Below are positions 7,889 through 54,433 of a stretch of DNA of 64,000 nt, piece by piece; the stretch's first letter is position 1; every line of letters begins with the position of its first letter. The notes beneath the pieces are model-generated. The model was given only the letters and a program-made list of their open reading frames with translations. It did not search any database and was not told where the DNA came from. The DNA lies in the NCBI RefSeq assembly GCF_002192415.1, contig NZ_CP021780.1, positions 1,674,001 to 1,738,000 on the forward strand, in the 5' to 3' direction. Source of the DNA: Paenibacillus donghaensis (lineage in GTDB: Bacteria; Bacillota; Bacilli; Paenibacillales; Paenibacillaceae). A program made the translations under genes and the position numbers.

Positions 7889-7899
7889 TCAATAACAAA

Positions 7900-7943: not shown

Positions 7944-7993
7944 TTCTAACTAGTGAATACTCATTACTCTTTCAGACTCCCCAAAAATATTGG

Positions 7994-8023
7994 TTTACAT
8001 ATTTGCTTCTATTATTATATACT
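7994..8023 (+). promoter_or_regulatory. Candidate promoter of the biosynthetic operon
   Basis: TTTACA (7994-7999), 18-base spacer, TATACT (8018-8023), in the AT-rich stretch about 70 bases upstream of the first gene at 8096. No further promoter or terminator is evident between the genes up to 54,398. Confidence 0.4.
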
Positions 8024-8095
8024 TTCTATAAAGTTACATTAAAATACAAATAAAACCAAACCATAAGCAGATTTAACTAGTCTGGAGTTGACAAT

Positions 8096-8809
8096 ATGCG
8101 TCAGGTTAAATTATTTTGTTTGCCTTATGGAGGAGGTTCGGCATATTCCTATCTAAAATGGAAAAGTGAACTTGCAGATGTTGTTCAATTATGTCCGGTT
8201 GAGCTTACGGGAAGAGGAAAGCGTTTTTCCGAGCCGTATTACAACAGTATCGAAGAGGCAGTGGATGATGTATACAAGAGCATTAAACCTGATCTTAATC
8301 AAACGCCCTATGCTATTTTCGGACACAGCATGGGGAGTATTATTTTGTATGAACTGTATTTTAAAATTATGGAAATGAACCATAAGGCACCCGTCCATCT
8401 CTTTATATCAGGAAGAAAGGCTCCTGAAATACCAGATTATGAAATCACTTATAATTTGCCGGAATTGGAGTTCACTAATAAAGTGATGCAGTATGAGGGA
8501 ACTCCAAGGGAAATATTTGATAACAAAGAGCTGGCAGACATCTTTATTCCCTTGCTGAGGGCAGATTTCAAAATTGTACAGACCTATCAGTACAAGCCCA
8601 CAGGCAGAAAAATGGATACGAACGTAACAGTGATGTACGGCAAGGATGACATTTATACATATGGTGATACCGGTTCTTGGAAGAAGCATGTCAACGGCAG
8701 CTGTGAATTCCATGTATTCAATGGTGGGCACTTTTTTATACATAATGATAAACATAAGGTGGTTGAAGTTATTAATACAGCTTTGTTGAATAGTTTCTTT
8801 GCTCGCTGA
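8096..8809 (+). CDS. Type II thioesterase (SrfAD/GrsT-like)
   Basis: A 237-residue alpha/beta hydrolase that removes wrong acyl groups from carrier proteins of PKS/NRPS lines. It begins with the family start LFCLPYGGGSAYSYLKW, has the nucleophile elbow GHSMGS with Ser near residue 84, an Asp near 185 in YGKDDIYT, and the catalytic His in NGGHFFIHND near residue 214. Its length is standard. It is the first gene of the biosynthetic operon, 14 bases ahead of the acyl ligase gene, and is preceded by TGGAG before the ATG. The role is proofreading rather than product release, since the large NRPS carries its own terminal thioesterase. Confidence 0.92.
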   Translation: MRQVKLFCLPYGGGSAYSYLKWKSELADVVQLCPVELTGRGKRFSEPYYNSIEEAVDDVYKSIKPDLNQTPYAIFGHSMGSIILYELYFKIMEMNHKAPVHLFISGRKAPEIPDYEITYNLPELEFTNKVMQYEGTPREIFDNKELADIFIPLLRADFKIVQTYQYKPTGRKMDTNVTVMYGKDDIYTYGDTGSWKKHVNGSCEFHVFNGGHFFIHNDKHKVVEVINTALLNSFFAR

Positions 8810-8823
8810 CGAAGGAGGATAAC

Positions 8824-11418
8824 ATGACAAGGTTTCGTACTTTGGTTGAAGCCATCCGGGAAAGAAGCAGTGAAGTCAGCATAGGTATTACGTTTATTGC
8901 CGGAGATGATGAGGAAACGTTCGTTTCGTACAAAGACCTTTATGAGAAGGCAGCTTTAATTCTGGGTGTGCTCCAGGCCAATGGAGTTCAGTCAGGAGAT
9001 GAACTGGTTCTACAGATTGAGGATCAAATCGATTTTGTAACTTTTTTTTGGGCATGTATTCTTGGTAGAATAATTCCCGTTCCGGTTACGATAGGCAATA
9101 ATGATGAACACAGAAATAAAGTTTTTCAGATTATGAAAATATTAAACAACCCCTTTCTGGCAACAAGCAAGCGGCAACTGGCATACTTAGAGAAATATGC
9201 AGAGTCCAACGACTTAAATGGGGAGTTGCATGGAATAAATGCTAAAACCTTGCTTGTGGATCAAATGCAACCGGTTTCCCAAGCGGGGCAGATCGAGCCT
9301 CTGGAAGATTTTGAAATCGTATTCATCCAATTCTCGTCTGGATCAACAGGAGAACCCAAAGGCGTCATACTGACTCACGATAACTTACTTGCGAACATCT
9401 ACGCCTCCATCAAATGTTCAGGAACAAGCAGACAAGACTCTATGCTGACCTGGATGCCCCTAACCCACGATATGGGAATGATCGGTTCCCATATGCTTCC
9501 TTTGGTAGCAGGTATCAACCAATATCTCATACCAACTTCCTTATTTATCAGAAGGCCTACCCTGTGGCTGAAAAAAACTTCTGAGCATCAAGCAACAATC
9601 TTATCATCCCCTAATTTTGGATTTAGGTATTTGTTATCGTTTTACAAGCCTGAAAGCAATTACGACTGGGATCTATCCCATGTCAAGATTATATACAATG
9701 GTGCTGAGCCTATTTCTACTGAATTGTGTCATGAATTTCTGGATCAGATGTCCAGATATGGTCTTAAGGAAACCGTTATTTTTCCCGTTTACGGACTTGC
9801 GGAAGCATCGGTCGCTGTCTCCTTTCCCGTTCCAGGCGAAGAGTTGAAGGAAGTGAATCTCGACCGCCGTAATTTGAATGTTCTTGATATGATCCGAAAT
9901 GTCGATCCCAAGGATGCCGATTGCATCACTTTGGTGGAAGTAGGCTCTCCTGTGGACGACTGTTTACTGCGAATATGCGATACCCAAGATAATGTGCTCA
10001 ATGAAAAAACAGTTGGGGAGATTCAAATTAGCGGAAGAAATGTGACCAGCGGCTATTACAGGAATCAGGAAGCGACGGACCGTATATTGACCGGGGACGG
10101 ATGGTTGAGAACAGGGGATTTAGGATTCTTACAGAATGGAAAACTCGTTATAACCGGAAGATTAAAGGACATTATTTTCATCAATGGGCAGAATTATTAT
10201 CCTTATGATATAGAAAGAATCGTAGAACAGATAGATGGAGCGAAATATGGTGGGGTGGCTGCATGCGGAGTGTTTGATGCAGAGCAGCAGAAGGAAGAAA
10301 TCGTCGTGTTTGTAATTCATAAAAAGAAGCTAGAAGAGTTCCTTGATATGTATGCGGACGTGAAAAAATGGGTTGGTAGACAGCTGGGTGTGGAGGTGAA
10401 AGACGTTATTCCCTTGCGCAGGCTTCCGAAAACCACCAGCGGGAAAATTCAGCGGTATAAGCTCGCAGATGAATATAGCATGGGTCTGTTCAACGATATT
10501 TCACTAGAATTGAAGCAGTTGGCCAATCGGAGTATTGAGCAGGCGCAGGATCATCTTCCGGTTAATGGGATCGAACACAAACTGCTCCAGATATGGTCCT
10601 GTGTGCTGCAAGTTGAAGCTGATCAAATCAGTGTGAATGATAATTTCTTCGAGATTGGAGGGAACTCCACTCTTATGGTTCAGATGATATCCTACATTGA
10701 TGCTGATTATCCTGGGACTATAAATATCACGGACCCATTTGAGACACCAACAATCAAAGGGCTGGCAGAACATATTGATAGCGCTTCCCGAAAGCAGGAG
10801 CCTTCCCAATCCATAACATTGCTGGAGCTGCCCGAAACCTTTTTTGTAGATAACAATGCTTCTTACCTTCAGAGCCCTATTCAAGAATACAGCTTTGTGA
10901 TGGAAGAACAACACTATAGTATGTTGCGGGACATTTCAGCGAATGAAGCTATTGGTGTCCAAGATGTATTAGTGCTGTTGTTTGCCTTTGCGGTTTCACA
11001 AATAGCCGGAGTTCAGTCAGTTCCCCTTCAGGTCCTGCATGATGAGGGAAGAATTTATCCTGTCACAGTTGATTTTAGTCAAACTATGGATTTTTCCCGA
11101 TTACTGCAAGAGGTGCTTCACATCCGAAAGGGTGGTTCCGGCAGCGGCAGGAGCATCCATGCGTTTGCGGATGCCCGGATACTAAAGAGTGAAAGATCAG
11201 TGTTGGCGCTTGTTTATTCGAGAAGCAATCTGAACTCCAATCTGAACTTAATGGAGATTTTCGATATCACAGGCAGGATCGATGAGTACGAGGATACGCT
11301 TACTTTTATTTGTGAGTACAACGCGTTAAGACTGAGCAAGGAAGGCATGGGTAGAGTCGTTAGCCAGTACCAGAAATTAATAGAAACCCTTATTAGCCAG
11401 TATGTACTTAGGAGGTAG
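8824..11418 (+). CDS. Loading acyl-AMP ligase (FAAL / PksJ-type) with ACP and a degenerate C-domain lobe
   Basis: An 864-residue starter protein. Residues about 1-560 form an acyl-AMP ligase: A3 loop FSSGSTGEPKGV near 175, TWMPLTHDMGMIG near 210, VYGLAEAS near 323, TGDLGF near 435 and a catalytic Lys in KTTSGKIQRYK near 545. The sequence style is that of fatty acyl-AMP ligases and the loading ligases of PksJ/BaeJ type. Residues about 575-655 are a carrier protein with phosphopantetheine Ser in EIGGNSTLM (Asn replaces the common Asp). The last about 200 residues look like the C-terminal lobe of a condensation-type domain (IYPVTVDFSQTMDF) without the HHxxxDG lobe. The start is supported by AAGGAGG. 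It should activate a carboxylic acid with ATP and pass it to its ACP for the first KS. The acid may be a fatty acid or a short branched acid. Confidence 0.88.
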   Translation: MTRFRTLVEAIRERSSEVSIGITFIAGDDEETFVSYKDLYEKAALILGVLQANGVQSGDELVLQIEDQIDFVTFFWACILGRIIPVPVTIGNNDEHRNKVFQIMKILNNPFLATSKRQLAYLEKYAESNDLNGELHGINAKTLLVDQMQPVSQAGQIEPLEDFEIVFIQFSSGSTGEPKGVILTHDNLLANIYASIKCSGTSRQDSMLTWMPLTHDMGMIGSHMLPLVAGINQYLIPTSLFIRRPTLWLKKTSEHQATILSSPNFGFRYLLSFYKPESNYDWDLSHVKIIYNGAEPISTELCHEFLDQMSRYGLKETVIFPVYGLAEASVAVSFPVPGEELKEVNLDRRNLNVLDMIRNVDPKDADCITLVEVGSPVDDCLLRICDTQDNVLNEKTVGEIQISGRNVTSGYYRNQEATDRILTGDGWLRTGDLGFLQNGKLVITGRLKDIIFINGQNYYPYDIERIVEQIDGAKYGGVAACGVFDAEQQKEEIVVFVIHKKKLEEFLDMYADVKKWVGRQLGVEVKDVIPLRRLPKTTSGKIQRYKLADEYSMGLFNDISLELKQLANRSIEQAQDHLPVNGIEHKLLQIWSCVLQVEADQISVNDNFFEIGGNSTLMVQMISYIDADYPGTINITDPFETPTIKGLAEHIDSASRKQEPSQSITLLELPETFFVDNNASYLQSPIQEYSFVMEEQHYSMLRDISANEAIGVQDVLVLLFAFAVSQIAGVQSVPLQVLHDEGRIYPVTVDFSQTMDFSRLLQEVLHIRKGGSGSGRSIHAFADARILKSERSVLALVYSRSNLNSNLNLMEIFDITGRIDEYEDTLTFICEYNALRLSKEGMGRVVSQYQKLIETLISQYVLRR

Positions 11419-11422
11419 ACAG

Positions 11423-12712
11423 ATGGCTGTCAGAACCGCTTTTTTATTTCCGGGGCAGGGCTCTCAATACGTCGGAATGGGAAATGCTTTATTTCTTGAA
11501 TCAGCTGTAGCCAGACAAATATTCGAAGAAGCCAATGATGTGCTGGGTTTTGATGTTGCAAAGCTATGCTTTAAGGGGGATTTGACGGAACTGACAGATA
11601 CCTATAACGCTCAGCCAGCAATTCTTACTGTAAGTATGGCAGCTTTCCGGACCTTGATGGCGGAAACACCGATTAAGCCGTTTATACTTGCCGGACACAG
11701 CCTCGGAGAAATTTCGGCTTTGGTTGCCAGTGGCGCAATCCGCTTTCAAGATGGTTTACGCCTTGTAAGAAGAAGAGGTTATCTGATGAGAGAAGCTAGT
11801 ATTTCCGCTCCTGGGTCGATGGCGGCCATAAGCGGTATGCCATTAGAAATGATTGAGAAGAAATGTGCGGAATATTCGAATCATGATCAAATCCTTGTTC
11901 TGTCCAACATCAATTCACCGGATCAGATCGTGATATCGGGAGATACAAGAATGGTGACCAAGGCTTGCGAACTTCTCACTGAAGAAGGAGCATATGCGAC
12001 ACTTTTAAACGTAAGCGCTGCCTTCCACAGTCCGTTGATGAAACAAGCCTCCTGTGAGTTTGCTGCGGAGTTGAACAGAATTCAGTTCAGTGAACTGAAA
12101 TGGCCGGTATTATCCAACGTAACGGCACTCCCTTATAGATCCTATCATGATATTGCGGATTATCTTACAAGGCAGATGGTCAGTACGGTGATGTGGAGCA
12201 AGTCCATGCAGTACCTTAAGTACAATCAAGTGGAAGCAGCCATCGAAATGGAGCCCAGAAACGTGCTGAGAAACTTGATGAAATGGAATGAACCCCAGAT
12301 TAAGACCTATTCCTACAAAGGTGTAGAGAGCATGGATCTTATGGAGGAATTACTTAATGCATGGAAGACAACGGAGCCTGAAGCAACGACTAGTACTCAC
12401 AGCTTAGTGGAGCGCTGTCTGGCAATCGCAATCTGCACAAGAAACCGGAATTGGAGCGAGGGGGAGTACAGATTAGGTGTTGTAGAGCCCTATCGGCAGG
12501 TGAAGCTTATGCAGGACAAGATAGAGAGTGAGAACAGACAGCCTGCTTATGATGAAATGGTTCAGGCCATCCAAATGCTAAAATCCGTTTTTGTAACTAA
12601 AAAAGCACCTATTGACGAGCAAACGGAAAGATTACAGCAATTGTTCAGGGAGTCGGGGACGTCAGCAATGTTCTCCACTGAAGCGATCTTGCATAAAGGG
12701 CTCTTCCAATAA
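11423..12712 (+). CDS. Stand-alone malonyl-CoA:ACP acyltransferase (trans-AT) with C-terminal extension
   Basis: A 429-residue trans-acting acyltransferase that should load malonyl units onto the AT-less PKS modules downstream. It has FLFPGQGSQYVGMG near the start, the catalytic GHSLGE near residue 90, the substrate-pocket segment AAFHSPLM near 200 (the His-Ser pair usual for malonyl-specific ATs) and SNVTALPY near 230. The FabD-like core ends near residue 300. About 130 further residues (from about 305) have no domain I recognise and may serve protein contact. I start it at 11423 because AGGAGG (11410-11415) stands eight bases ahead of this ATG and the FabD start AVRTAFLFPG follows. An upstream in-frame ATG at 11402 overlaps the previous gene. 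No reductase or second AT is present in the cluster. Confidence 0.92.
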   Translation: MAVRTAFLFPGQGSQYVGMGNALFLESAVARQIFEEANDVLGFDVAKLCFKGDLTELTDTYNAQPAILTVSMAAFRTLMAETPIKPFILAGHSLGEISALVASGAIRFQDGLRLVRRRGYLMREASISAPGSMAAISGMPLEMIEKKCAEYSNHDQILVLSNINSPDQIVISGDTRMVTKACELLTEEGAYATLLNVSAAFHSPLMKQASCEFAAELNRIQFSELKWPVLSNVTALPYRSYHDIADYLTRQMVSTVMWSKSMQYLKYNQVEAAIEMEPRNVLRNLMKWNEPQIKTYSYKGVESMDLMEELLNAWKTTEPEATTSTHSLVERCLAIAICTRNRNWSEGEYRLGVVEPYRQVKLMQDKIESENRQPAYDEMVQAIQMLKSVFVTKKAPIDEQTERLQQLFRESGTSAMFSTEAILHKGLFQ

Positions 12713-12731
12713 ACCATAGACGGGTGATGTT

Positions 12732-15700
12732 ATGGGATTTAATCTCTCGGAATTAAGTCTTGTCCAGTCAAATGAAACGCCTCTTATTAATGGGCATAGG
12801 GGGATAGGTGATGAAGACGCTCATAATACGGATATTGCCATTATCGGAATGTCTGTTAATTTCCCCGGAGCCAAGGATTGTGACGCATACTGGAATAATA
12901 TCAAGAACGGCAAAGACCTGATAACAGAATTTCCTGAAACCAGACGCGCGGAGATTGATAAATATTTGTCCGTGAACCCTAATGCTCTGGAGGGATATGA
13001 ATACTTTCAAGCGGCATTTCTTGATGAAGTGGATACATTCGACTACCGCTTTTTCCGGCTTACTCCGGCGGAAGCCAGCCTGATGAGTCCGGTTCAACGT
13101 CTATTTCTTCAGACTGCTTACACAACAATAGAGGATGCAGGTTATGCAGGAAGTAAGATTATTGGCAGCAAAACCGGCGTTTTTGTCGGATATATCGGTG
13201 ATACGGTCGGAAATACATATGAGGATATTTTAGCCAGCAGTAGCGATGCCCTGAATCCAGGCATTTTTACAGGGAATCTGTCATCCATGATTCCCAGCAG
13301 AATCTCGTATTACCTTGATTTGAAAGGCCCCAGTCTGGTTGTTGATACAGCTTGCTCCTCCTCTCTGGTTGCTGTGCATCTGGCATGCCAATCGATCAGG
13401 AATGGAGAATGTGACACGGCTCTTGTTGGTGGAATTAAGCTGTTTCTGGTTCCAGTTAAGAATAAGGTGAAGCTTGGCCTGGATTCTCCGACTTACCGTT
13501 CCAAGGCCTTTGACGACAGCTCCGACGGAATCGGCGTTGGCGAAGGTTCAGCGGCGGTAATGTTGAAGCCGTTGAGTAAGGCGTTAAGGGATCGGGATCA
13601 CATATACGCGGTAATTAAAGGAAGCGCTATAAATCAGGATGGGAACTCCATTGGTATAACCGCTCCTAACGTGGCAGAGCAGGCAAATGTAATTGCTAAG
13701 GCATGGAATAATGCCAGAATCAACCCGGAGACTCTGTCTTATATTGAGGCCCATGGAACAGGGACCAGAATCGGTGACCCCATTGAGATCGAAGGAATTA
13801 AGAAAGCCTTTGAGCGCTTCACAAACAAGAAACAGTTCTGTGCGATTGGTTCAGTGAAATCCAATATAGGACATTTAAACGAGGCAGCCGGTATCGCTGG
13901 ACTTATTAAGCTTGCCCTTTGCTTGAAGCATGGGGAAATACCGCCAACCCTTCACCTCAACCGGCCGAACCGGAGAATCGAGTTTGAAGATTCTCCAGTG
14001 TATGTGCAGGATAAATGGACGAAATGGGACTTCGGAGGAGAACAGAGAAGGGCAGGTATCAGCTCCTTCGGCTTTAGTGGAACGAATTGCCATATGGTGT
14101 TGGAGCAGTCCCCGGAAGTTGAAGCAGGCCCTGAAGCGTACAGAGGGGGACCGAGCGTACTGACTCTATCCTCAAAGTCAAGAGGCTCGTTGGAAAGGCT
14201 GCTTCTCGATTATCGAACATTTTTAAGTGAGAACCCTGCAATCTGTATGAAGAATCTATGTTACACAGCGAACACGGGCAGGGATCATTTTAATTACCGC
14301 TTGGCTATCATTGCCACTGAACTGAAGGAGCTTAAGAATTCCATAGAGAGTTTATGTGCTTCGGGCTTAGACGGATTGCTGCAAGAGAATATATACTTCA
14401 ACCAATTTACAATAGTTAACCGAACGAAGGGTGCACTCAGAGACGGAGACCTTACGGAAGAGCAATTGGAAGGTAAGAACTGCCTGGCCAGGTTTAAGAT
14501 GAAAGAATATGTAAGCAGCGGCAAGGGAAATAAAGGACTTTTCCAAGAAATATGCAGCTTGTATGCAAGCGGTGCAACGATTGATTGGAATCTTCTATAC
14601 GATAAAGAAAAACTTAGAACAGTCAGCCTGCCTACTTATTCCTTTGACAGGGAACGATGCTGGTGTAGCATTGCCGATCAACCCATAGACGGTTCTCAGC
14701 CAGAAAGCGGGAATCCCTTCTTTACGATGGCGTGGGAACCTAATGCGTTGGTGAAGGGCAACGGCACAGCAGTCTCCAAACAAATAATCTTGTTCAAAAA
14801 TACTACCAGCAGTTATGAATCGATCGAAGAACAGCTTCGAGGAACAGGGAATCTTGTCATTTCAGTAACTATTGGCAAGTCCTTTGAGCGGATCAACACC
14901 AGCAGTTATGTAATCGACAACTCGGAAGAAGGTTTTGCACGCTTATTCTGGAATGTCTCTCCTGATCTCCCCGTTCATATCGTCCATTTGTTAGCTGCTG
15001 GGCTTGAAGCAGAAGCTCAAAATCTCAATGAATTGGATCGTAATCTGGAGTTGGGAGTTTATAACGTTTTTTATTTGGCGAAGGCGCTAAAGCATCTGGA
15101 AACGTCAGATCCAATTCGTGTTGATCTTATTGCCGGGAGGGCCGGCAAAGTCGCAGCGCAAGACGATCTGGTTATACCCGAGAACGGAACAATGATAGGA
15201 TTGGCCAAAGTAATCAATCGTGAATTCCCGCAAGTCTCGTGCAGAACTATTGATGTTGACGATACCTTCACTGTGGAGCAGTTGCTTGACGAACTCAGTT
15301 GCGAGAATAATGAAGGGCAGGTTGCTTATCGAAACGGTGTCAGGTATGCAGAATACCTGCAATCTCTTCAGCTTGAAGCCACCACTCATTCGAATGTTGA
15401 GATTAAAGAAAATGGCACGTATCTCATCAGCGGTGGATTAAGCGGGATTGGTTATGAAGTTGCGAAATATTTAACTGCAGCGGCGAAGGTTCATCTCATT
15501 TTAATGAACCGTACATCCATACCGGAACGGGAGAAGTGGGATGAATTAATAGTAAGCAATGCGGATCATAAGCTCACCGGAGGAATCGCTGCAATCCGGA
15601 GTTTGGAGGCTGCAGGTTCCACCGTGGAGTACCTTCGCGCAGATGTTTCCAATTTGCAACATATGGAGCAAGCTATTGATCGTATCAGCGCAAAGTACGG

Positions 15701-21209: not shown

Positions 21210-21210
21210 C

Positions 21211-27246: not shown

Positions 27247-27278
27247 GTTGTCTGTTAAACCAGCAAGGGGGTCTTTAC

Positions 27279-36662: not shown

Positions 36663-36684
36663 TAGGGAGGAGCACGAATACTAG

Positions 36685-45600: not shown

Positions 45601-48600
45601 CTTAACCGTGGAGAACTGACCTCGCTAAAATTCATTGAGAACCCTTTTGAGCCGGGAGAAATGCTATATCGCTCTGGTGATATTGTCAGGCTGATTGCTG
45701 AAGGGGAACTGGAGTACCTGGGAAGAATCGACCATCAGGTGAAGATCAGAGGTTATCGAATTGAGCTGGGGGAAATTGAATCCCGACTTATTCAGCATGA
45801 GGCCATCAGCGAGGTTATACTCCTTCCATGGGAAGATAGTATGAATGGCGATTACTTATGTGCCTATATCGTAAGCGCCTGTGAGCTTTCGGTTGCTGAA
45901 TTAAGAGCGTTTCTGGGGGCTGGTGTACCTGACTACATGATTCCTTCCTATTTCATCCGGATGGAGGAGCTTCCGCTAACGTCTAACGGCAAAGTAGATC
46001 GCAATAAGCTGCCGCAGCCTGTGGGGAATATGTTGTCATCCGGCTCTTATGTTGCTCCTGCTAACGATTCCGAAGCTAAGCTGGCTGAAATTTGGCAGGA
46101 TATTCTGGATATTGAACATGTAGGCGTGACCGATAATTTCTTCGAGCTGGGTGGCCATTCACTGAAGGCAACCATCATCATGTTCAGGATTACACAGGAA
46201 TTCCATGTTCAGGTGCCACTTAGGGAGTTCTTCAACAAGCAGATCGTTCGTGAGCTCTCCATGCTAATCGAAAGCCTGAAAACAAGCAGTTATCGGTCTA
46301 TTCAGCCAGTGGAGCAAAAGGAATATTATCCTATGTCTTCTGCGCAAAAAAGATTGTATATTCTCGATCAAATGGAAGATATTAGGACTAGCTATAACAT
46401 TCCTGCGGCAATGATCATCGAAGGTGAATTGGACAATGACAGGTTTGCAGAAGCCATTCAGGTCTTGATCAAGAGGCATGAAGCGTTCAGAACCGCCTTC
46501 ATTCTGGTCGATAATCAGCCCCGGCAAATAATTGTTCCGTATGAAGATTTCGATATTGTATCGTTTGATTGTGGTGAGCATGATATGAATAAAGCCGTAT
46601 TAAGCTTTATTCAGCCGTTTGATCTAACGAAACCCCCGTTAGTAAGAGTTGGTTTGGCGAAGCTCGCAAGGAACAAACATATAGTTCTTTTTGATATGCA
46701 CCATATTATCTCGGATGGCACATCCCTGGGTATCATCATGTCCGATTTCCTTGCTTCTTACGAGGGCGGTATGTTGTCGGAGCTGAAGGTGCAATACAAG
46801 GATTTTGCAGAATGGCAGAATAACCAAGCGCATTCAGATGGCTTTAAAAAGCAGGAAAAATATTGGTTGCGCAGATTCTCCGATGAGCTGCCTGTTCTCA
46901 GAATGCCGACGGATTTCATCCGGCCTGTCAAGCAAAGCTTTGAGGGGGGCTCCATTTCATTTGATGTTTCTGCAATATTGACAGAGAGGCTGAATGCCTT
47001 GGCAGTAGAGACCGGAGCCACATTATATATGGTGCTTCTCGCAGTGTTTAATGTATTGCTGTCCAAATATTCAGGCCAAGAGGATATTATCGTCGGTTCA
47101 CCGATAGCAGGACGGTCCCATAGTGATCTGTATAATGTTGTGGGTATGTTCGTCAATACCCTTGCCATGAGGAACTATCCGCAAGGTGAGAGGACATTCC
47201 TACAATTCCTTGAGGAAGTAAAGGAGAACTCGCTGCAAGCCTATGAGAATCAAGATTATCAATTCGAAGAGCTGATAGACAATCTGAATTTAGAAAGGGA
47301 TATGAGCAGAAATCCGTTGTTTGATGTAGCTTTTGTATTACAGAATACGGATATGAAGGGACTGAAATCCGCTAGTCTCCAGGCATCCCTGTATAAATTT
47401 GAGAACATAACGGCTAAATTCGATATTTGGTTATGTGCTGTAGAGAACGATAGTAACCTGGAATTTATCATGGAGTATAGCTCTAAACTTTATAAGAGAG
47501 AAACCATAGAAAGAATGTCCAGACGGTTTATTAGTATTCTTCAACAAATTGTTACCGATAGGAACAGTAAGATTAATGAACTTGAGATGGTTACGAATGA
47601 AGAGATGCAGACAGTACTCCATGAGTTTAACAATGATGTTCCGGCCTATATCAAGGAGAGTACGATCCACCGGTTATTCGAAGAGCAGGTAGACCGGACG
47701 CCTGACCGCATTGCCGTAGTATTTGAAGGGAAAAGAGTGAGTTACGGCGAGCTTGACAGACGTGCAAACCGGTACGCCAACTACTTGAACAAAACCCATG
47801 GAATCGGACCAGATTCACTCGTTGGCGTGATGCTTGAGAAGACAGATGAGCTGATTGCCGTCACCCTAGGCATTTTAAAATCCGGAGGGGCGTATATTCC
47901 TATTGATCCGGAAGCACCGGAAGAAAGAATTAAATCCATTATTGAAGATGCAGGGTTAGCTTTGCTGATCTCTAGCAAGAAGAACATAAGGACGTTAAAC
48001 AGGCTGCAGTGGGAAACCGAATGCCTACGTACATTTCTATGCGTTGATTCCACAGAGGTTCATAGTGAGAAGGAAGCGGAGAAAAACGATTTGATGCGTG
48101 AAGAAGTATGGAGGGTTGTTGGGCTAAATGCCAGTAATGATATTGAAGGCGGGGCTTGGACGAACAGTTATACAGGAAACAATCTGAGTGAAATGGAAAT
48201 GGAGGAGTATTCCGACAATATCTATCAGAAGCTTAAGCCGTGTCTGAGGAAGGACACAAGAGTGTTAGAGATTGGATGCGCTTCCGGTTTGAGTATGTAC
48301 AGAATCGCTCCAGAAGTTGGTTTATATTATGGGACCGACTTGTCTCAAGTAATTATCGAGAGAAATAAAGGTCGGGTTGCCGCCACAGGACTGAACAACA
48401 TCAAGCTCTCCTGTCTGCCTGCCCATGATATCAATCAAATCGAAGAACGGGATTTCGATATTATTATCATCAACTCCGTTGTCCAATGTTTTCATGGTCA
48501 TAACTATCTGAGGGATATCATAAACAAATCTATCAAGCTTATGAAACGTTCTGGCATACTTTTTATCGGCGATATCATGGACCAGGATAGTAAAGATGAA

Positions 48601-50994
48601 CTTATTCGATCCATGTTGGAGTTCAAGCGCAGCTACCCAAATAGCAATTACAGGACCAAAACCGATTGGTCAGTGGAGTTGTTCTTATCCAGAGCCTTCT
48701 TTGAAGATCTGCAAACTGACATCATAAGCATCCAGGAGATCAGATTCTCGGATAAGATCCACACGATCAAGAATGAGTTAACCCAATACCGTTATGATGT
48801 TATGATCCTGGTCGATAACAATCCAGCACACGTAAACAGGGGAAGAAGCAAGCACAAAAATCAACATGGATTCAATGATGTTGCTCTATATGATTGCGAA
48901 CGCATTCAAGCCAAGGCAATGCAAAATAATCTGGCCTACGTCATTTACACATCTGGTACAACAGGAAAACCGAAGGGGGCGATGATAGAGCATCAGAATG
49001 TGGTACAGCTTCTAAAGCATGACAACATGCGGTTTAACTTCAATGAAAATGATGTCTGGACCCTGTTCCACTCGTATTGTTTTGATTTTTCCGTGTGGGA
49101 GATGTATGGCGCGCTCTTGTACGGTGGCAAGCTTGTCGTCGTCCCCAAAGCTGTGGCACAGGATACTAAGGAGTTCCTATTGCTTATACAGGAAGAGAAG
49201 GTAACAGTGTTGAACCAGACGCCTTCCGCATTTTATCGATTAATGAATGAGGAAGCAAAGTTGTCTGAGGCGGAGCTGTGTTTGAGATATTTGATCTTCG
49301 GAGGCGAAGCTTTACAGGCCGGCATGTTGAAAAAATGGAAGGAACGTTATCCTCTTACCAAGCTAATTAATATGTATGGCATCACGGAGACAACGGTTCA
49401 TGTTACGTACAAAGAAATCACGGATCAGGAAATTGAATCCGGCCGAAGCAATATTGGAAGACCCTTGCCCACAGTGACTGCTTATGTCATGAATGATGCC
49501 CTGAAGCTTCAACCCGTCGGTATTCCCGGGGAATTATGTGTGGGAGGAACAGGTGTCTCACGGGGGTACTTAAACAGAGCGGAATTAACTTACAGCAAGT
49601 TTATTCAGAATCCGTACAAGCCGGGTGAAAGACTCTATAGGTCTGGAGATATTGTAAGGCTGCTGCCTGACGGTGATTTGGAGTATTTGGGCAGAAAGGA
49701 CCAGCAGGTGAAGATTCGGGGATACCGAATCGAGCGGGGAGAGATCGAGGCGTATCTGATCCAACATGAATCAATCAGCGAGGCCGTGGTAGTCGACCGA
49801 CAAGATTCTAGTGGGGATATCTACTTATGTGCTTACCTGATCTCGGATAAGGAGTTGACTGTATTAGAAATTAGGGAGTTTTTGTCCAAAGAGTTGAACG
49901 ATTACGCTATTCCTTCTTACTTTGTGAGACTGGATACGATTCCGTTAACAGCAAACGGCAAATTGAACAGGAAGGAATTTCCTGATCCCGTAATTAACCT
50001 AAATACAGGTGTTCAATATGTGGAGCCTGCAAGCGAGACGGAAATGGAGCTGGCGGCCATATGGCGAGATGTACTTGAGATTGTAAGTGTAGGCACTAAT
50101 GATAATTTCTTCGAGCTGGGCGGACATTCGTTAAAGGCTGTACAAGTGATATCACTGATCATGGAACGGCTGAGCCTTCAACTGAAAGTAACTGATATAT
50201 TCGCCAACCCAACCCTGAAGGAACTGGCAGATTATGTAGATCATTTAAGATACTACAGCGGAAAGTTGCCTATTGAGAAGTCCATGCTGCTCTTAAATGA
50301 GAAGAAGGATCGGCATATTTTTGCCTTTCCTCCGATTATTGGATATTCCATAGGGTTTCATCGTCTGGCACGAATAATTGACACCCATTCTTTCTATAGC
50401 TTTGATTATATTGAAAATAAAGGAAATTTAGAAATTTATGTGGAATTAATAATGAGTATTCAGCAAGAAGGCCCGTACGTGCTGTTAGGCTACTCAGCCG
50501 GAGGAAATCTGGCATATGAGGTTGCACGTAGACTTGAAGAGAAAGGACAATGCGTATCGGATATCATTCTAATGGATTCTTACATTGAAAAGCATGAGGA
50601 ATTCTCCATGACCCATGGAGTTGTCGATGAGATGGTCTCTAAGTTTCTCTTGGATTACAGTGTTCAGAATAGCAGCAATATCAACATTGATCAGATAGTG
50701 AATGAGGTGCTGAAGCGTTCAGAAGGTTATGCACAATTTTATAACAGCTTAGAGCACGAGGGTGTTGTCCATTCCGAAATCCATGTGGTGAAATCCGACT
50801 CCAGTATCGGAATCGATTTGGAGGGGCAGTGGAACAACTACACCAGCAAGACTGTACAAACTTATCAGGGAACCGGACCGCATGCGGATATGATCTTCGC
50901 CCAATATTCCGATGCCAACGGCCGGTTAATCAAACGGATCTTAAACGAAGCGCTTTTGAGGTCCGGCAAGTTGGAGGAAGCACATGGGAGATAA
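36685..50994 (+). CDS. NRPS: partial C - A(Thr)/MT-T - C-A(Leu)-T - C-A(Thr)-T - C-A(Thr)/MT-T - TE
   Basis: A 4,769-residue terminal NRPS. Residues 1-255 are a condensation-domain C-lobe only. A1 reads DFWNIGMVHK (Thr) and is interrupted between motifs a2 (LKAGGAYVPMDP) and a3 (YTSGTTGKPKG) by a methyltransferase of about 290 residues (VLEIGCASGL near 470). T1 Ser1091. Module 2: C (HHIIADG, His1271), A DAWFLGNVVK (Leu), T Ser2118. Module 3: C, A DFWNIGMVF(K) (Thr-like, Phe where His is usual), T Ser3159. Module 4: C, A DFWNIGMVHK (Thr) again split by an MT (VLEIGCASGL near 3861), T Ser4482. No E domains. The TE (about 4530-4769) has GYSAGG with Ser4604. Adenylation domains 1, 3 and 4 are near copies, and MT-bearing modules 1 and 4 look like a duplication. 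a2-a3 insertions are known mainly for side-chain O- or S-methylation, so O-methyl-Thr is likelier than N-methyl-Thr, but this is inference. Confidence 0.93.
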   Translation: MDKVTRNIVMSSEAYQTERHYWMNKLQGDLVMAGIPADSLCSSIESKGSSSFTREISGGDFERIMKIGNSSELGVYLILLTALKSLFVIYNNHEDVLVGMPVFKADPLESRMNRLLPLRSHLSRNFTLKELLNDVNHVVMEADEHKHFPMDGVAELLAIQTADGLFPEFRTVVLLDGFHDSINACNNSAELVVSFYIGDSSIAVKMEYRIPKLNESKVSAFAEHFFNLLHNWIESPETRLCEIEYLSLEEKNKLLFAWNDTDAEYCGDKTLHQLFEEQADRTPHHIAIQYQNKRVTYKQLDEQANVYANYLLQEHDLTPGTLVGVMLDKSDELIAVTLGILKAGGAYVPMDPEYPEERLKMIIEDAGMHLIISGKRYIKTLNKLQWECNNFKAFLCVDTHNVMQEEENEKNELMGEEVWKYVGLNAKDDIEGGAWTSSYTGGNLSKEDMEEYTNNIECKLKPYLNSTTRVLEIGCASGLSMYPLAPQVGWYYGTDLSEVIIGKNRERVQKEGIGNIKLACIPAHDIDKLEEADFDVVILNSVVQCFHGHNYFKNVISKCLGMLRNQGILFIGDVMDQERKADLLKSLVEFKQAHEDKNYRTKTDWSVELFLSPGFFEDLRADFTEITAIQISDKIHTITNELTAFRYDAIIHVDKSGTSQTLQPKLKLQHGLQELNRYRNDRFHSQVSPNSLAYIIYTSGTTGKPKGAMIEHRNVVRLMSNSRMPFEFNEEDVWTMFHSYSFDFSVWEMYGALLYGGKLIVIPKPIAQDTSGFLTLLKQNKVTVLNQTPSAFYRLIEQDLESGGSGLNLRYVIFGGEALRPGVLSDWQRKYSHTKLINMYGITETTVHATYKEIGLSEIQTNCSNIGKPIPTLKAYVMSDNMRLLPAGIVGELCIGGDGVCRGYLNRPAQTLDKFVDNPYQPGQRLYRSGDLAKLLPNGELEYCGRMDQQVKIRGHRIELSEVEHILHMHEEIKEAVVVAHSDNHQENMLCAYYVSEIPLTVHDLKLYLSTMLPEYAIPSYFVQMDYIPLTYNGKVNKRGLPNPLNNINTGIEYLGATNETEETLIEVWKQVLKVDTIGILDNFFELGGHSLKATILISMIHKVFDVEVPLAAIFKNQTLKELAVFIELSKKSRFAAIEQAEKKDSYELSAAQKRLYVLSQLDQGGVGYNIPVVMTIEGTLDSELLKSCIEGIVGRHEVFRTSFILADGEPVQRIHTDTLVDIQTFSSSEDRVESIIRDFIQPFDLTVAPLLRVGLIEVCEQKYILIFDMHHIIADGTSIGILMRDFVSAYEGSASQSLRIQYKDYSEWQNNWFRSEAFQRQEQYWMQQFLGELPLLNMPVDYPRPSVQSYAGDAVTFGLSKELTQQLNELASESGATVYMILLAAYNILLHKYTGQEDIIVGSPVAGRQHTDVQHMVGMFVNTLAIRSFPRAGQTFKQFLEDVKLTSLDALDNQDYPFEELVDRLNLSRDLSRNPLFDTVFSMLNMDAADVEIEGLTFKPYEFEYKISKFDLTLQAVEAKETGLIEFRLEYNTDLFAREKMDRLAVHLVYIIKQLVKNPDARLRDIELATVEEQQQILSVFNNTGMDYPADHTIHELFMRQVNQTPDNTALVYDNRTMSYKELNDKSNQVAAILRGKGVRTDYIVALIAEPSFEMIIGMLGILKAGGAYLPIDPDYPVERTSYMLQDSDCCLLLGNSHLVKPYENLAAVVCLDDPIIETVDVSDVGLDNAPQDLAYVIYTSGSTGNPKGVMVEHRALVNLCSWHIAYYAVTSTDRSTKYAGFGFDASVWEIFPYLISGSAIYIITKEIRLDVEQLNSFMEEHGITISFLPTPICEQFLRLDNKSLKKLLTGGDYLKYVKKKSYELFNNYGPTENTVVATSFKITEESEKIPVGKPISNCQALILDSCNNLLPIGVSGELCISGTGLARGYVCNAPLTEEKFVPHPFFQGERMYRTGDLARWLPDGNIEFLGRIDRQVKIRGHRIELGEVEAQLLRHPSVIQTAVTDKTDSNGHKVLCAYIVSNEVMTTSELRTFLSGSLPEYEIPSYFITVKEIALTSNGKVNRDVLPEPKEMMDTGTEYIEARDDVEERLKAIWHELLGVETISIKDNFFELGGHSLKATSLVSRIAKEFNVHLPIKEVFSNQTLENLAVAIKEAKRAVFHSIVPAQDKEFYPVSAAQKRIFILSQFNSEDLLYNVPGTLLIEGAVNRERVEHAVKTLVNRHEAFRTSFAVVNGEPVQKVQHEAVIEIRFLKSTEQQVEQLITSFIQPFNLSQAPLLRVGLVRLCHDRHVLVFDMHHIIADGTSMDILVREFLSLYQAQTLPPLRIHYKDYSDWQNSYLASDALRKLRAYWKQMFTDDVPVLNMPTDYPRPAVQSFEGDTIGLELRPNLVAKLSTLTMGTGTTLYMVLLAAYNVILAKYTGQEDIVVGSPIAGRPHADLENIVGMFVNTLALRNYPNNGKTFKQFLMEVKDSSLQAYENQDYPFDELVDMLSVRRDLSRNPLFDVMFAMQSVDVYSTELDGVSMKPFPVNFNVAKFDLTLNVLETNGRIRLTMEYCTKLFKRETVERLLHHYEYILDQVTENASIRLEELELLTLADRNQLLLDCRKPWAWGNGNKTICQLFEEQAARTPDHIALVFENQTMTYRELNEKANALARGLIGHGIHSEDIVAILVERSLDMMISIMGVLKSGGAYLPIDPNYPADRISYTLEDSCAKLILTHKNLHHGLAYPVDVLYVDECETYHWDTTNTHIMGKTENLAYVIYTSGTTGRPKGAMIEDRNVVQLVMENNELFHFGEKDTWTLFHSYSFDFSVWEMYGALLYGGKLVIVPKFTAQDTKEFLDLLIKEKVTVLNQTPSAFYRLMEEELKRTAAELQLRCVIFGGEALKAGLLKEWSDRYSNTKLINMYGITETTVFVTHKEITKEDISSTRNNIGRPLPTYTAYIVDSNLRLQPRGVAGELLVGGKGVGRGYLNRGELTSLKFIENPFEPGEMLYRSGDIVRLIAEGELEYLGRIDHQVKIRGYRIELGEIESRLIQHEAISEVILLPWEDSMNGDYLCAYIVSACELSVAELRAFLGAGVPDYMIPSYFIRMEELPLTSNGKVDRNKLPQPVGNMLSSGSYVAPANDSEAKLAEIWQDILDIEHVGVTDNFFELGGHSLKATIIMFRITQEFHVQVPLREFFNKQIVRELSMLIESLKTSSYRSIQPVEQKEYYPMSSAQKRLYILDQMEDIRTSYNIPAAMIIEGELDNDRFAEAIQVLIKRHEAFRTAFILVDNQPRQIIVPYEDFDIVSFDCGEHDMNKAVLSFIQPFDLTKPPLVRVGLAKLARNKHIVLFDMHHIISDGTSLGIIMSDFLASYEGGMLSELKVQYKDFAEWQNNQAHSDGFKKQEKYWLRRFSDELPVLRMPTDFIRPVKQSFEGGSISFDVSAILTERLNALAVETGATLYMVLLAVFNVLLSKYSGQEDIIVGSPIAGRSHSDLYNVVGMFVNTLAMRNYPQGERTFLQFLEEVKENSLQAYENQDYQFEELIDNLNLERDMSRNPLFDVAFVLQNTDMKGLKSASLQASLYKFENITAKFDIWLCAVENDSNLEFIMEYSSKLYKRETIERMSRRFISILQQIVTDRNSKINELEMVTNEEMQTVLHEFNNDVPAYIKESTIHRLFEEQVDRTPDRIAVVFEGKRVSYGELDRRANRYANYLNKTHGIGPDSLVGVMLEKTDELIAVTLGILKSGGAYIPIDPEAPEERIKSIIEDAGLALLISSKKNIRTLNRLQWETECLRTFLCVDSTEVHSEKEAEKNDLMREEVWRVVGLNASNDIEGGAWTNSYTGNNLSEMEMEEYSDNIYQKLKPCLRKDTRVLEIGCASGLSMYRIAPEVGLYYGTDLSQVIIERNKGRVAATGLNNIKLSCLPAHDINQIEERDFDIIIINSVVQCFHGHNYLRDIINKSIKLMKRSGILFIGDIMDQDSKDELIRSMLEFKRSYPNSNYRTKTDWSVELFLSRAFFEDLQTDIISIQEIRFSDKIHTIKNELTQYRYDVMILVDNNPAHVNRGRSKHKNQHGFNDVALYDCERIQAKAMQNNLAYVIYTSGTTGKPKGAMIEHQNVVQLLKHDNMRFNFNENDVWTLFHSYCFDFSVWEMYGALLYGGKLVVVPKAVAQDTKEFLLLIQEEKVTVLNQTPSAFYRLMNEEAKLSEAELCLRYLIFGGEALQAGMLKKWKERYPLTKLINMYGITETTVHVTYKEITDQEIESGRSNIGRPLPTVTAYVMNDALKLQPVGIPGELCVGGTGVSRGYLNRAELTYSKFIQNPYKPGERLYRSGDIVRLLPDGDLEYLGRKDQQVKIRGYRIERGEIEAYLIQHESISEAVVVDRQDSSGDIYLCAYLISDKELTVLEIREFLSKELNDYAIPSYFVRLDTIPLTANGKLNRKEFPDPVINLNTGVQYVEPASETEMELAAIWRDVLEIVSVGTNDNFFELGGHSLKAVQVISLIMERLSLQLKVTDIFANPTLKELADYVDHLRYYSGKLPIEKSMLLLNEKKDRHIFAFPPIIGYSIGFHRLARIIDTHSFYSFDYIENKGNLEIYVELIMSIQQEGPYVLLGYSAGGNLAYEVARRLEEKGQCVSDIILMDSYIEKHEEFSMTHGVVDEMVSKFLLDYSVQNSSNINIDQIVNEVLKRSEGYAQFYNSLEHEGVVHSEIHVVKSDSSIGIDLEGQWNNYTSKTVQTYQGTGPHADMIFAQYSDANGRLIKRILNEALLRSGKLEEAHGR

Positions 50995-52597
50995 TATCGA
51001 TTGCCTGTTTATCGGACATAACGAGATGAAATTTGAAGAATATGAAAAAATCATTAGAGCTATGAGTGTGAAATCCGGAGCGTATCGTGACCTGAACTTC
51101 AGTTTTATACAGAAAGATGGAAGGTTGTTCAATGCACCTGATTTATTTAACTATTATTATTACGAGAAGGGAGGGAGGAAAGATGACTTTGGCCCATTGA
51201 ACCTGGGCAATTTATTCAGCAACGCGATTGCTTATTTGAGCAGCTACTTGCAGCGAAGAGGTCTAACTACAGATTATGTAAATTCGTTTCAGGTTGACAA
51301 GCAGTTATTGATCGAGAAGCTGAAGAATAATCACATTACAGCCATTGCCATTCCTACGACTCTTTACGTTTCCGGGTTTCCCGTACTTGAAATCATGAAG
51401 CTGATCAAACAATATAATCAGACAGCAAAAGTAATACTGGGAGGTCCGTTTATTGCAAACAATCTGTCGGGCAGCAACGAAACTGCCATCCAGTATATGC
51501 TGAAGTCCATCAATGCTGATTATTACATCAATTCAGCGCAAGGAGAGGAAACCCTATCTAAGGTTGTTGACGCGCTAAAACATAACAAGAATGTGAGCGA
51601 TATCGAGAATGTCTTGTATAAAGACGGCAATGTCTATTCCTCTACATCGTTATCTTTGGAGGACAACAGGCTTGAGGAAAATATGATTAACTGGACCATG
51701 TTTTCCGACAGGCTGGGTAAAAGTGTGAGCGTTCGTACAGCCATATCCTGTCCCTTTTCCTGTTACTTCTGTGAGTATCCCGAAAGAGCGGGGAAATACC
51801 GCTATACAAGCGTGGAGTCGATAGAAAAGGAGCTTAATGCGATCAATGATCTGAAGCGGGTGACAAGTGTCAGTTTTATTGACGATACCTTTAACATACC
51901 GACTAAAAGATTCAAAGACATTCTTCGAATGATGATCAGAAACAAATACCCATTCAAATGGAACTCTTATTTTCGTTGCCAGTTCGCTGACCGGGAAATG
52001 GTAGAACTTATGAAGGAAAGCGGTTGCGAAGGTGTTATTCTGGGTATCGAATCCGGAAGCAATAAAATATTAAAGAATATGAACAAAGCTGCGACAGTGG
52101 AGCAATACAAGCAAGGGATAAGCTTGCTAAATGAATATGGTATCGTTTCAGAAGCTTCTTTTATTATTGGTTTTATCGGAGAAGATCAGGATACGTATCG
52201 TGAAACGGTACAATTTATTGAAGAATGCCGCCCTACGTTCTACCGGCCTCAGGTATGGTATTGTTCGACGCTTGCACCGATATGGGCTAATCGGGATAAG
52301 CATGGAATTAAAGGAGTCGGCTTCGAGTGGACACATCAGACAATGGACTCCAACACAGCATTTCATATGGTGCAGGACATGTTCTTGAACATTAAGAATT
52401 CCTTATGGATTCCCCAGTACAACTTTGATTTCCCGGGTGTGATTGGTCTAATGCAAAGAGGACTTAATCTAAAGCAGATTACCGAGTATATTAACTTGTT
52501 CAACGAAGGAGTTTCAGGAAAGTTGATCAACCCGGATCAAAAGGATATTGGGCCGCATATAATGGACAGGCTGGAGCAGTATTATAGAGAACTCTAG
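50984..52597 (+). CDS. Cobalamin-dependent radical SAM enzyme (PhpK-like methyltransferase family)
   Basis: A 537-residue enzyme. Residues about 1-190 form a cobalamin-binding-type Rossmann domain (VILGGPFIA near 147). Residues about 230-460 form a radical SAM barrel with the cluster motif CPFSCYFC near residue 256 (CxxxCxxC), FIDDTFNIP near 303 and a GIESGSNKILKNMNK segment near 350. This B12-radical-SAM layout resembles the PhpK/TsrM/CysS class, which methylates unreactive carbon or phosphorus centres. Its ATG overlaps the NRPS stop by eleven bases and is preceded by TTGGAGGA, so it is translationally linked to the assembly line and probably tailors its product. Possible targets are a C-H of the peptide or acyl chain, the thiazole, or the methoxy carbon made by the MT domains. 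Which one cannot be told from sequence. Confidence 0.85.
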   Translation: MGDNIDCLFIGHNEMKFEEYEKIIRAMSVKSGAYRDLNFSFIQKDGRLFNAPDLFNYYYYEKGGRKDDFGPLNLGNLFSNAIAYLSSYLQRRGLTTDYVNSFQVDKQLLIEKLKNNHITAIAIPTTLYVSGFPVLEIMKLIKQYNQTAKVILGGPFIANNLSGSNETAIQYMLKSINADYYINSAQGEETLSKVVDALKHNKNVSDIENVLYKDGNVYSSTSLSLEDNRLEENMINWTMFSDRLGKSVSVRTAISCPFSCYFCEYPERAGKYRYTSVESIEKELNAINDLKRVTSVSFIDDTFNIPTKRFKDILRMMIRNKYPFKWNSYFRCQFADREMVELMKESGCEGVILGIESGSNKILKNMNKAATVEQYKQGISLLNEYGIVSEASFIIGFIGEDQDTYRETVQFIEECRPTFYRPQVWYCSTLAPIWANRDKHGIKGVGFEWTHQTMDSNTAFHMVQDMFLNIKNSLWIPQYNFDFPGVIGLMQRGLNLKQITEYINLFNEGVSGKLINPDQKDIGPHIMDRLEQYYREL

Positions 52598-52625
52598 CAG
52601 ACAAATAACCAAGGAGAGTGAGTAC

Positions 52626-53546
52626 ATGCAGAAAGTGATAGACGTCAAAGGCTTGAAGAAAAGCTATGGAGAGCTGGAAGCGGTCAAGGGGGTGGACCTG
52701 GATGTGTATGAAGGGGAATGCTTCGGATTCCTCGGTCCCAACGGTGCGGGCAAAAGCACGACGATCAATATGCTGTGCACCATGCTGAAGCCTTCCGGCG
52801 GCAGCGCGAAGATCGGCGGCTTCGATCTGATGAAGGAGCGGGCTAGTGTGCGCGAAACGATCGGGATTATTTTTCAAGACAATACGCTGGATGAGAAGCT
52901 TACTGCCAAAGAGAATTTAATGCTTCACTGCCGATTCTATAAGGTGCCTGCGCAGGAGCGGATGACCCGGATTGACCGGGTGCTGGAAATGGTTGAACTG
53001 TCGGACCGGAAGAACAGCTTCGTGGGCACGTTCTCGGGCGGGATGAAACGGAGATTGGAGATTGCGCGGGGACTGCTGCACTACCCCAAGGTGCTTTTTC
53101 TGGATGAGCCTACCGTGGGGCTTGATCCGCAGACGCGTGCGCATATTTGGGATTATATACATAAGCTGAGGGAGGAAATTGGGATCACGATCTTTCTTAC
53201 CACGCATTACATGGATGAAGCTGAAATCTGCGATAAAATTGCCATCATTGATGACGGCAGGATTATTGCCCTCGATACACCGGCCGGCTTGAAGGATGGC
53301 GTAGGGGGCGACATTATTGAGATATCTGCAGATAACAACTTGAAAGCGAAGGAAGAGCTGGAGCAGAAATATGGAAGAACGGTGAAGGAACAAGACAGCA
53401 TCCTCATCTTTGAGGTTGAGAAGGGCAATGAATTCATCGCGGAATTCGTGAAGAATGCCGATTTCAGGATCACGAGCATCAATCTTAGAAGACCGACGCT
53501 TAACGATGTTTTTCTGAAACTGACGGGCAAGCAGATCAGAGATTAA
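52626..53546 (+). CDS. ABC transporter ATPase (DrrA-like)
   Basis: A 306-residue cytosolic ATPase of the daunorubicin-resistance type. Walker A GPNGAGKST near residue 38, Q-loop IIFQDNTLDEK near 80, signature FSGGMKRRLEIARG near 138, Walker B VLFLDEPTVGLDP near 158 and an H-loop His in LTTHYMDEAE near 196. The C-terminal about 80 residues are the regulatory tail usual in DrrA proteins. It starts 28 bases after the radical SAM gene with AAGGAGAG as ribosome site and is followed 24 bases later by its permease. Position suggests export of, or self-protection against, the cluster's product. The base composition switches back to GC-rich exactly here, so it may not share the cluster's origin. Confidence 0.92.
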   Translation: MQKVIDVKGLKKSYGELEAVKGVDLDVYEGECFGFLGPNGAGKSTTINMLCTMLKPSGGSAKIGGFDLMKERASVRETIGIIFQDNTLDEKLTAKENLMLHCRFYKVPAQERMTRIDRVLEMVELSDRKNSFVGTFSGGMKRRLEIARGLLHYPKVLFLDEPTVGLDPQTRAHIWDYIHKLREEIGITIFLTTHYMDEAEICDKIAIIDDGRIIALDTPAGLKDGVGGDIIEISADNNLKAKEELEQKYGRTVKEQDSILIFEVEKGNEFIAEFVKNADFRITSINLRRPTLNDVFLKLTGKQIRD

Positions 53547-53570
53547 CTTACTACTAGGAGGCTGAATCTA

Positions 53571-54398: not shown

Positions 54399-54433
54399 TC
54401 CGATATCGCCTCCATTATTTCTCCACAGAATCC

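Follow-up and report, generated by a model that had tools for sequence, protein, structure and literature searches.

The window analysed here, bases 1674001-1738000 (64,000 nucleotides) of one 8.54 Mb contig of Paenibacillus donghaensis, carries a cryptic trans-acyltransferase (trans-AT) polyketide synthase-nonribosomal peptide synthetase (PKS-NRPS) lipopeptide line. Eight plus-strand genes at 8096-52597, neighbours being spaced or overlapping by no more than 32 bases, encode in order a type II thioesterase (TEII), a fatty acyl-AMP ligase fused to an acyl carrier protein (FAAL-ACP), a trans-AT, PKS1, PKSB, NRPSA, NRPSB and a B12-binding radical S-adenosylmethionine (SAM) enzyme, and a DrrA/DrrB-type exporter adjoins the run on its 3′ side. 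The locus is probably best explained as an acquired island encoding a lipopeptide line, the subunits of which are ordered by docking between a condensation-domain C-lobe, here called half-C, and a short tail ending in F-x-F. A sequence-only reading had described a contiguous line with gaps of about 32 bases or less, comprising a starter ligase-ACP, one trans-AT, three PKS modules, six NRPS modules, a thioesterase (TE) and a B12 radical SAM enzyme; the same-strand contiguity was borne out and the domain evidence confirmed this inventory. Its linked run also stood, with eight genes rather than seven since the TEII at 8096 belongs to it. It had missed the C-lobe-only starts of both NRPS proteins, the further C-lobe ending the FAAL-ACP protein, and the surrounding island.

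A complete C domain with an F-x-F tail precedes the half-C

At both splits between a condensation (C) and an adenylation (A) domain, the upstream protein closes with a complete C domain and the downstream one opens with a C-lobe-only half-C. The upstream tails read VGDFAF in PKSB and NISFNF in NRPSA, and the two N-terminal half-Cs are 24% identical to each other. A search with the window's half-C matched 46 of 100 same-genus genomes, and profile searches matched 182 of the order's 296 genomes and 23 of the 398 in the phylum; these tallies include full C domains. Among 88 loci classified, 53 carried a half-C and 35 a full C; merging repeats and adding BamB left 47 distinct half-C places, on which ground a sequencing or frameshift artefact was dropped. 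At 41 of these 47 places, the open reading frame (ORF) just upstream ends in a complete C domain. When the upstream-ORF tails were grouped at 60% identity, all 18 groups ended hydrophobic-x-hydrophobic and 15 ended F-x-F/L/I; grouping at 50% identity gave 15 of 15 and 13 of 15, respectively. The tails were then compared across complete assembly-line ORFs from loci picked by half-C, radical SAM or ketosynthase (KS), not by tail. An F-x-F/L/I end was found on 39 of 47 ORFs ending in a full C, 3 of 7 ending in a radical SAM domain and 0 of 54 others (4 E, 13 PCP, 4 KS, 5 KR, 9 ACP, 3 A, 1 TE, 1 TEII, 6 C-terminal half-C, 6 AT and 2 partial C ends), and a hydrophobic-x-hydrophobic end on 44, 3 and 3 of them, respectively. 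Two further junctions outside these counts fit the pattern, L137 ending GGIRF and L138 ending WEFDV, each with a half-C ORF next.

A half-C search at the protein level returned 23 proteins; besides the window's own, P0124, P0126 and P0127 start with a half-C and the other 19 carry a full C. Proteins of ~897 residues with the order half-C-A-PCP follow a C-ending subunit in five same-genus genomes (L028, L031, L032, L034 and L035), and in G034 a PKS-NRPS line surrounds such a protein. No description of a half-C/F-x-F docking pair was recognised in the literature searched, which lay mostly outside subscription journals and was available in part; within that scope, the junction appears undescribed.

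The half-Cs form a family with residues of their own

In a FastTree analysis of C-lobes, one split (support 1.0) held 41 of 41 half-Cs and none of the 75 other rows, which include the window's two C domains a second time; the FAAL-ACP tail fell outside it. Five positions (NRPSA numbering) set the 41 half-Cs apart from the 75 others: I173 (35 vs 5), H174 (29 vs 2), F188 (34 vs 4), F190 (33 vs 3) and Y208 (38 vs 4). The latch stretch spans 17-18 residues in half-Cs and 29-39 in complete C domains, and the floor-loop stretch 13-19 and 21-25, respectively, with both stretches placed by inference from a description in the available part of PMC11546977. The AlphaFold2 (AF2) prediction gave a C-lobe fold. 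The residues of their own and the shortened latch and floor-loop stretches speak for the half-C as a putative stand-alone domain, not a lobe awaiting its partner lobe. Complementation of an N-lobe in trans was likewise dropped, the two stretches being shortened and the upstream C complete.

Relatives of the B12 radical SAM enzyme carry the same tail

The radical SAM enzyme of the window passes the PhpK P-methyltransferase model. That it methylates phosphorus in a phosphinate, as the family name says and as its 633 bits against a cut-off of 600 would allow, is very improbable. Searching the whole genome for the PEP mutase family gave one match of 26.2 bits, under the 31.5 cut-off, so that no phosphonate or phosphinate pathway was seen and phosphorus methylation is unlikely; moreover, four of the five other same-genus relatives sit in NRPS/PKS clusters. 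The role was dropped on the PEP mutase result.

Relatives occur in 6 of the 100 same-genus genomes, the own one included, and in a search of the phylum (E 1e-100, at most three candidates scored per genome) in 1 of 398 genomes, the own one. The clusters of the four relatives (G112, G114, G116 and G088) contain half-Cs, whereas no PKS/NRPS cluster was found in the 40 kb covered for the relative in G027, which also lacks the F-x-F tail. In G112 and G114 the radical SAM protein ends EVEFDF and the half-C subunit lies directly next; in G116 EFDF stands seven residues from the C-terminus, and a half-C subunit again follows directly; in G088 the protein ends SIDFNF in the same cluster as a half-C but not directly before its subunit. 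The C-terminus of P0098 (Paenibacillus sp. FSL H8-0048) is identical to that of the G114 enzyme. Among the best 120 of 1291 radical SAM relatives, 79 end in F-x-F/L/I, comprising 78 of the 96 with at least 545 residues and 1 of the 24 shorter ones. The same tail next to a half-C is thus found in C domains and in radical SAM enzymes, families unrelated to each other, and this is the strongest hint in the sequences that the tail may be a docking motif. In P0127 (residues 383-948), a radical SAM stretch lies inside an A domain behind the half-C, about where A domains of the window carry methyltransferase (MT) insertions.

A second half-C type lies at the ACP|KS split

The FAAL-ACP protein ends in another C-lobe, the C-terminal half-C (hCt), which is more diverged than the N-terminal half-Cs. 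This second type sits after the terminal carrier, mostly ahead of trans-AT or KS genes, and would mark the ACP|KS split. Among 1774 candidates in a protein search with the FAAL-ACP tail (E 1e-3), only the tail itself matched, and no hCt was detected after the last PCP of the epifadin subunit EfiA at E 1e-3. KS subunits following an hCt (L136, L140, L141, L175-L194) have a short N-terminus, mostly without the helix pair seen in PKSB and often with F-x-L/F and acidic residues. The F-x-L/F occurs as GFNL, GFSL, LFDL, LFSL or KFSF, is variable, and is absent in L140, L193 and L194, for example; its recurrence in several subunits is suggestive of a motif.

Assembly-line chemistry and predicted product

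PKS1 has the order KS-KR-ACP-KS-DH-KR-ACP, PKSB KS-DH-KR-ACP-C, NRPSA half-C-A-PCP-E-Cy-A-PCP-Ox-C, and NRPSB half-C-A[MT]-PCP-C-A-PCP-C-A-PCP-C-A[MT]-PCP-TE, so that the collinear domain order proposed earlier holds in Pfam and motif calls (Table 1). Cys/His/His motifs are present in each of the three KS domains, as are the active-site motifs of DH, E, Cy and TE. PKS1 and PKSB lack PF00698 and the AT is encoded separately, which identifies a trans-AT PKS-NRPS hybrid. The FAAL-ACP start fits a lipopeptide line: the best family matches of the starter ligase are FAAL families, though under their cut-offs, and the FAAL profile matches the acyl ligase of BamA with 615 bits. The C-terminal ~135 residues of the AT protein (~300-436; 12302-12712) gave no Pfam match, and several ATs of related clusters are similar in length.

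Table 1. Features of the window and the evidence for their assignment
Feature	Position	Strand	Evidence or remark
tRNA-Leu, insertion site	7804-7890 (also placed at 7798-7891)		
Island downstream of tRNA-Leu	7892..56890		low-GC part ~8-54 kb
Type II thioesterase	8096..8809	+	PF00975 131 bits; GHSMG motif
FAAL	8824..10533	+	PF00501 168 bits; NF006624 348 bits, under 600 cut-off
ACP of FAAL protein	10540..10803	+	PF00550 44 bits
hCt, C-lobe-like tail of FAAL-ACP	10801..11415	+	
Trans-acting malonyl acyltransferase	11402..12712	+	PF00698; TIGR00128 fabD 287.9 bits, cut-off 260.9
PKS1	12732..21209	+	
PKSB, KS-DH-KR-ACP part	21211..25860	+	
Complete C domain at PKSB end	25873..27219	+	C profile 706 bits (profile includes this domain itself), model 2-442; PF00668 365 bits
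PKSB C-terminal tail	27214..27243	+	proposed docking motif
Half-C 1, C-lobe only, NRPSA N-terminus	27279..28064	+	proposed docking/platform domain
A(Ser)-PCP-E of NRPSA	28065..31178	+	
Cy-A(Cys)-PCP-Ox, thiazole-forming	31221..35303	+	PF00881; Cy motif DLLIADAAS; code DLYNLSLIWK
Complete C domain at NRPSA end	35319..36647	+	C profile 740 bits, model 3-446
NRPSA C-terminal tail	36630..36659	+	
Half-C 2, C-lobe only, NRPSB N-terminus	36685..37470	+	C profile 174-446 only, 62.7 bits
A(Thr) with inserted MT, then PCP	37477..40089	+	MT 37897-38664
C-A(Leu)-PCP	40096..43164	+	
C-A(Thr-like)-PCP	43177..46284	+	code DFWNIGMVFK
C-A(Thr) with inserted MT, then PCP	46297..50259	+	MT 48052-48834
Type I thioesterase	50257..50991	+	PF00975 79.5 bits; GYSAG motif
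B12-binding radical SAM methyltransferase, PhpK family	50984..52597	+	TIGR04479 633 bits, cut-off 600; CPFSCYFC
DrrA/DrrB-type ABC exporter	52626..54398	+	TIGR01188 355.7, cut-off 312.45; TIGR01247 176.3, under 223.05

Of the six A-PCP units, the first is followed by E, the second is flanked by Cy and a nitroreductase-type Ox, and the last precedes the TE; Cy, a Cys-specific A domain and an oxidase together constitute a thiazole-forming module. The ten-position A codes, derived by motif position, are DVWHFSLIDK, DLYNLSLIWK, DFWNIGMVHK, DAWFLGNVVK, DFWNIGMVFK and DFWNIGMVHK, which we take to specify Ser, Cys, Thr, Leu, a one-letter variant of Thr, and Thr. The Leu code printed in the available part of PMC7253712 equals the first nine letters of the fourth code. 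The residue order of the sequence-only reading stands for Ser, Cys, Leu and the first and last Thr; its fifth residue, also Thr, is less sure because this code departs from the Thr code at 1 of 10 positions (331, F for H). Motif positions place the two MTs inside A domains, between motifs A2 and A3, and the inserted MT is related to the interrupted A domain of PDB 5wmm (E 3e-21), presumably TioS. As a rule, an MT inserted at this point methylates side chains. The methylated threonines of the earlier reading are supported as far as there are two A[MT] domains whose codes read Thr; O-methylation, which rests on the side-chain rule, is the candidate modification.

Read collinearly, the FAAL would load a fatty acid onto its ACP, and three malonyl extensions fed by the trans-AT would yield a 7-hydroxy-2,4-dienoyl chain. 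The six NRPS modules would then add D-Ser and Cys (cyclised and oxidised to a thiazole), followed by Thr(Me), Leu, a residue resembling Thr, and a second Thr(Me), before the TE would release the chain in linear or cyclised form. The predicted collinear product is R-CH(OH)-CH2-CH=CH-CH=CH-CO-D-Ser-thiazole-Thr(Me)-Leu-Thr(-like)-Thr(Me). A product that departs from this reading through iteration, skipping, an unusual starter, or C-methylation of the thiazole or a residue by the radical SAM enzyme is a considerable, if lesser, possibility: the thiazole and the residues are candidate targets of the enzyme, and the PKS modules of epifadin, another trans-AT NRPS-PKS product of Bacilli, are proposed to be iterative in the available part of PMC11310079. 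The motifs present in KS, DH, E, Cy and TE, together with the recognised KR, Ox and carrier domains, argue instead for the collinear product. No compound matching the line was found in the titles and abstract beginnings searched. The line is itself a lead for a new lipopeptide. Two more PKS regions occur in the same genome, at ~188-247 kb and 2.97-3.02 Mb, with 13 and 5 of its 29 KS-family matches, respectively.

The line lies on an island behind a tRNA-Leu gene

Approximately 49 kb containing the line, the exporter and MerR/ABC genes is inserted behind tRNA-Leu, as judged from the site being empty or nearly so in six of the seven relatives fetched: there, 0.13-1.2 kb after tRNA-Leu, sequence matching the window from 56.9-57.4 kb onward follows. 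The seventh, G028 (L216), has 12.3 kb of other DNA behind tRNA-Leu. In 2 kb steps, GC content is 41-47% at 8-54 kb and 53-60% outside. No integrase was found among 23 proteins scanned against Pfam, nor any exact copy of the last 14 or more bases of tRNA-Leu elsewhere in the window. Since the nearest relatives in the 100 same-genus genomes are only 51% (radical SAM) and 37% (half-C) identical, no near copy of the line turned up among them; plasmid searches gave no near DNA match and no radical SAM match at E 1e-40. A scan of genome contigs yielded 9 distant loci, 23-39% identical, which were left out of the analysis. Within the island, 54488-56873 encodes an ABC pair and a MerR regulator that includes a TipAS antibiotic-recognition domain, and product sensing or export is possible.

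A proposed docking model for the half-C and the tail

Anatomy, recurrence, tail conservation, clade and fold, read from sequence or prediction, suggest the following arrangement. The upstream protein finishes in a complete C domain, whose short tail ending in F-x-F would be one docking partner; the downstream half-C, with its shortened floor loop and latch, would bind this tail, perhaps as an added beta strand. Most likely the half-C rests against the A domain in the way a C-lobe does within a whole module, and tailed PhpK-type relatives would probably use their tail to reach half-C modules. Binding, strand addition and the A contact are what we infer from this. A more general proposal is offered tentatively and falls somewhat short of an even balance: that the half-C would be a monophyletic docking domain that binds F-x-F tails, joins C-ending to A-starting subunits, recruits PhpK-family radical SAM enzymes as carrier-bound C-methyltransferases and, as hCt, lets trans-AT KS subunits take over chains from a carrier.

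Several observations weigh against this arrangement. At six of the 47 half-C places no full C stands just upstream: in the orthologous loci G112 and G114 the tailed radical SAM enzyme takes its place, in G100 a C-ending subunit with GFDF sits one gene further upstream, in G088 the C-like sequence is split across two ORFs, in G113 the C-bearing ORF ~2.4 kb upstream has no tail, and in G117 no full C was seen upstream. Three of six full-C ends without a half-C directly next still end hydrophobic-x-hydrophobic, 1 of 10 internal C domains has an F-x-F within 30 residues around or after its end, and the tails could be partly common through descent. The window's own radical SAM enzyme lacks the tail though its cluster has half-Cs. 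The AF2 alignment contained C-lobes of full C domains, leaning the model toward that fold, and the half-Cs were gathered with half-C queries, so that the test for a clade is tilted toward monophyly and other truncated C domains escape it. The loading module of ThdA, in the available part of PMC7253712, has a truncated C where no upstream partner exists.

This truncated C, described in the same part of PMC7253712 as probably inactive, would suit a reading of half-Cs as inert relics of C domains in subunits that meet by other means, as would the low identity between the two N-terminal half-Cs of the window; a relic is what has been suggested for the loading-module C* of thermoactinoamide synthetase. 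Conserved residues of their own, uniform shortening and a single clade are not expected of relics. Nor would relics be expected to lie, at 41 of 47 places and in several families, behind a full C whose tail is conserved, and this reading seems improbable. Alternatively, the half-C could be a structural platform for A in a split module, with the upstream C docking by its body and the tail doing something else. In complete modules A is contacted by the C-lobe, which is cited as modulating A selectivity (PMC7253712, in the part available); the tail common to C subunits and radical SAM enzymes is left unexplained by a platform, which we regard as rather unlikely.

Engineering of NRPS and PKS systems is limited by subunit junctions, and a tail of a few residues with a compact lobe at a C|A split would give a portable connector; exchange-unit engineering cuts at the N-lobe/C-lobe border, where the half-C boundary lies. 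The common tail also gives a testable prediction for a large, possibly misnamed radical SAM family.

Comparison with known systems

The PhpK family (TIGR04479) is the sequence family of the window's radical SAM enzyme, which differs in its NRPS context, in the absence of a phosphonate pathway seen in the genome, and in lacking the C-terminal F-x-F/L/I of most of its best relatives. The interrupted A domain 5wmm also holds an inserted MT, as in the window, where the insertion lies between A2 and A3.

Partial C domains at protein ends have been read otherwise: in the available parts of the sources, the truncated C of the ThdA loading module (PMC7253712) and the C* of a fungal NRPS cluster (PMC10212144) are presumed inactive, and the 133-residue terminal C of palmerolide PalD (PMC8739492) is taken as a release domain; these parts describe none of them as an inter-subunit docking partner. 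The SLiM-beta-hairpin pairs, as far as given in PMC9113145 and PMC13324335, likewise combine a short upstream C-terminal motif with a folded downstream N-terminal domain, but the partner in the window is a C-lobe of ~250 residues before A, and the tail follows C rather than a carrier. The small N-terminal beta-hairpin domain before C or Cy was not found in NRPSA or NRPSB, both of which start with a C-lobe directly before A. COM (helix-hand) docking also orders NRPS subunits but, in the parts of PMC12402864 and PMC11546977 available, joins E to C; neither window split is of this E|C type, both being C|A.

The closest likeness is to bacillomycin D synthetase, BamA-BamB-BamC, which shares with the window a FAAL start, a trans-AT and C|A splits where a full C, its tail ending hydrophobic-x-hydrophobic, is followed by an N-terminal half-C. 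The same junctions lie at BamA|BamB (tail SIQLNF) and BamB|BamC (tail EIELNF), and the iturin-type combination of full C, tail and half-C was found in the window. The structure of bacillomycin D follows its subunit order, so the junction of a full-C tail and a half-C would pass chains. Iturin synthetases carry an aminotransferase domain, and none of that type was found in the window line. According to the available part of the review PMC11546977, strains with deletions of COM regions in bacillomycin D synthetase made truncated peptides, although bacillomycin D production persisted in two of the strains, in one case identical to wild type. In iturinic lines FAAL, ACP and KS are fused, whereas the window line is split there and has an hCt, and only the window has three reducing PKS modules, a thiazole and MTs inserted in A domains. 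Collectively, the line is a further example of a known line type, and its junction is a docking variant also present in an iturinic synthetase.

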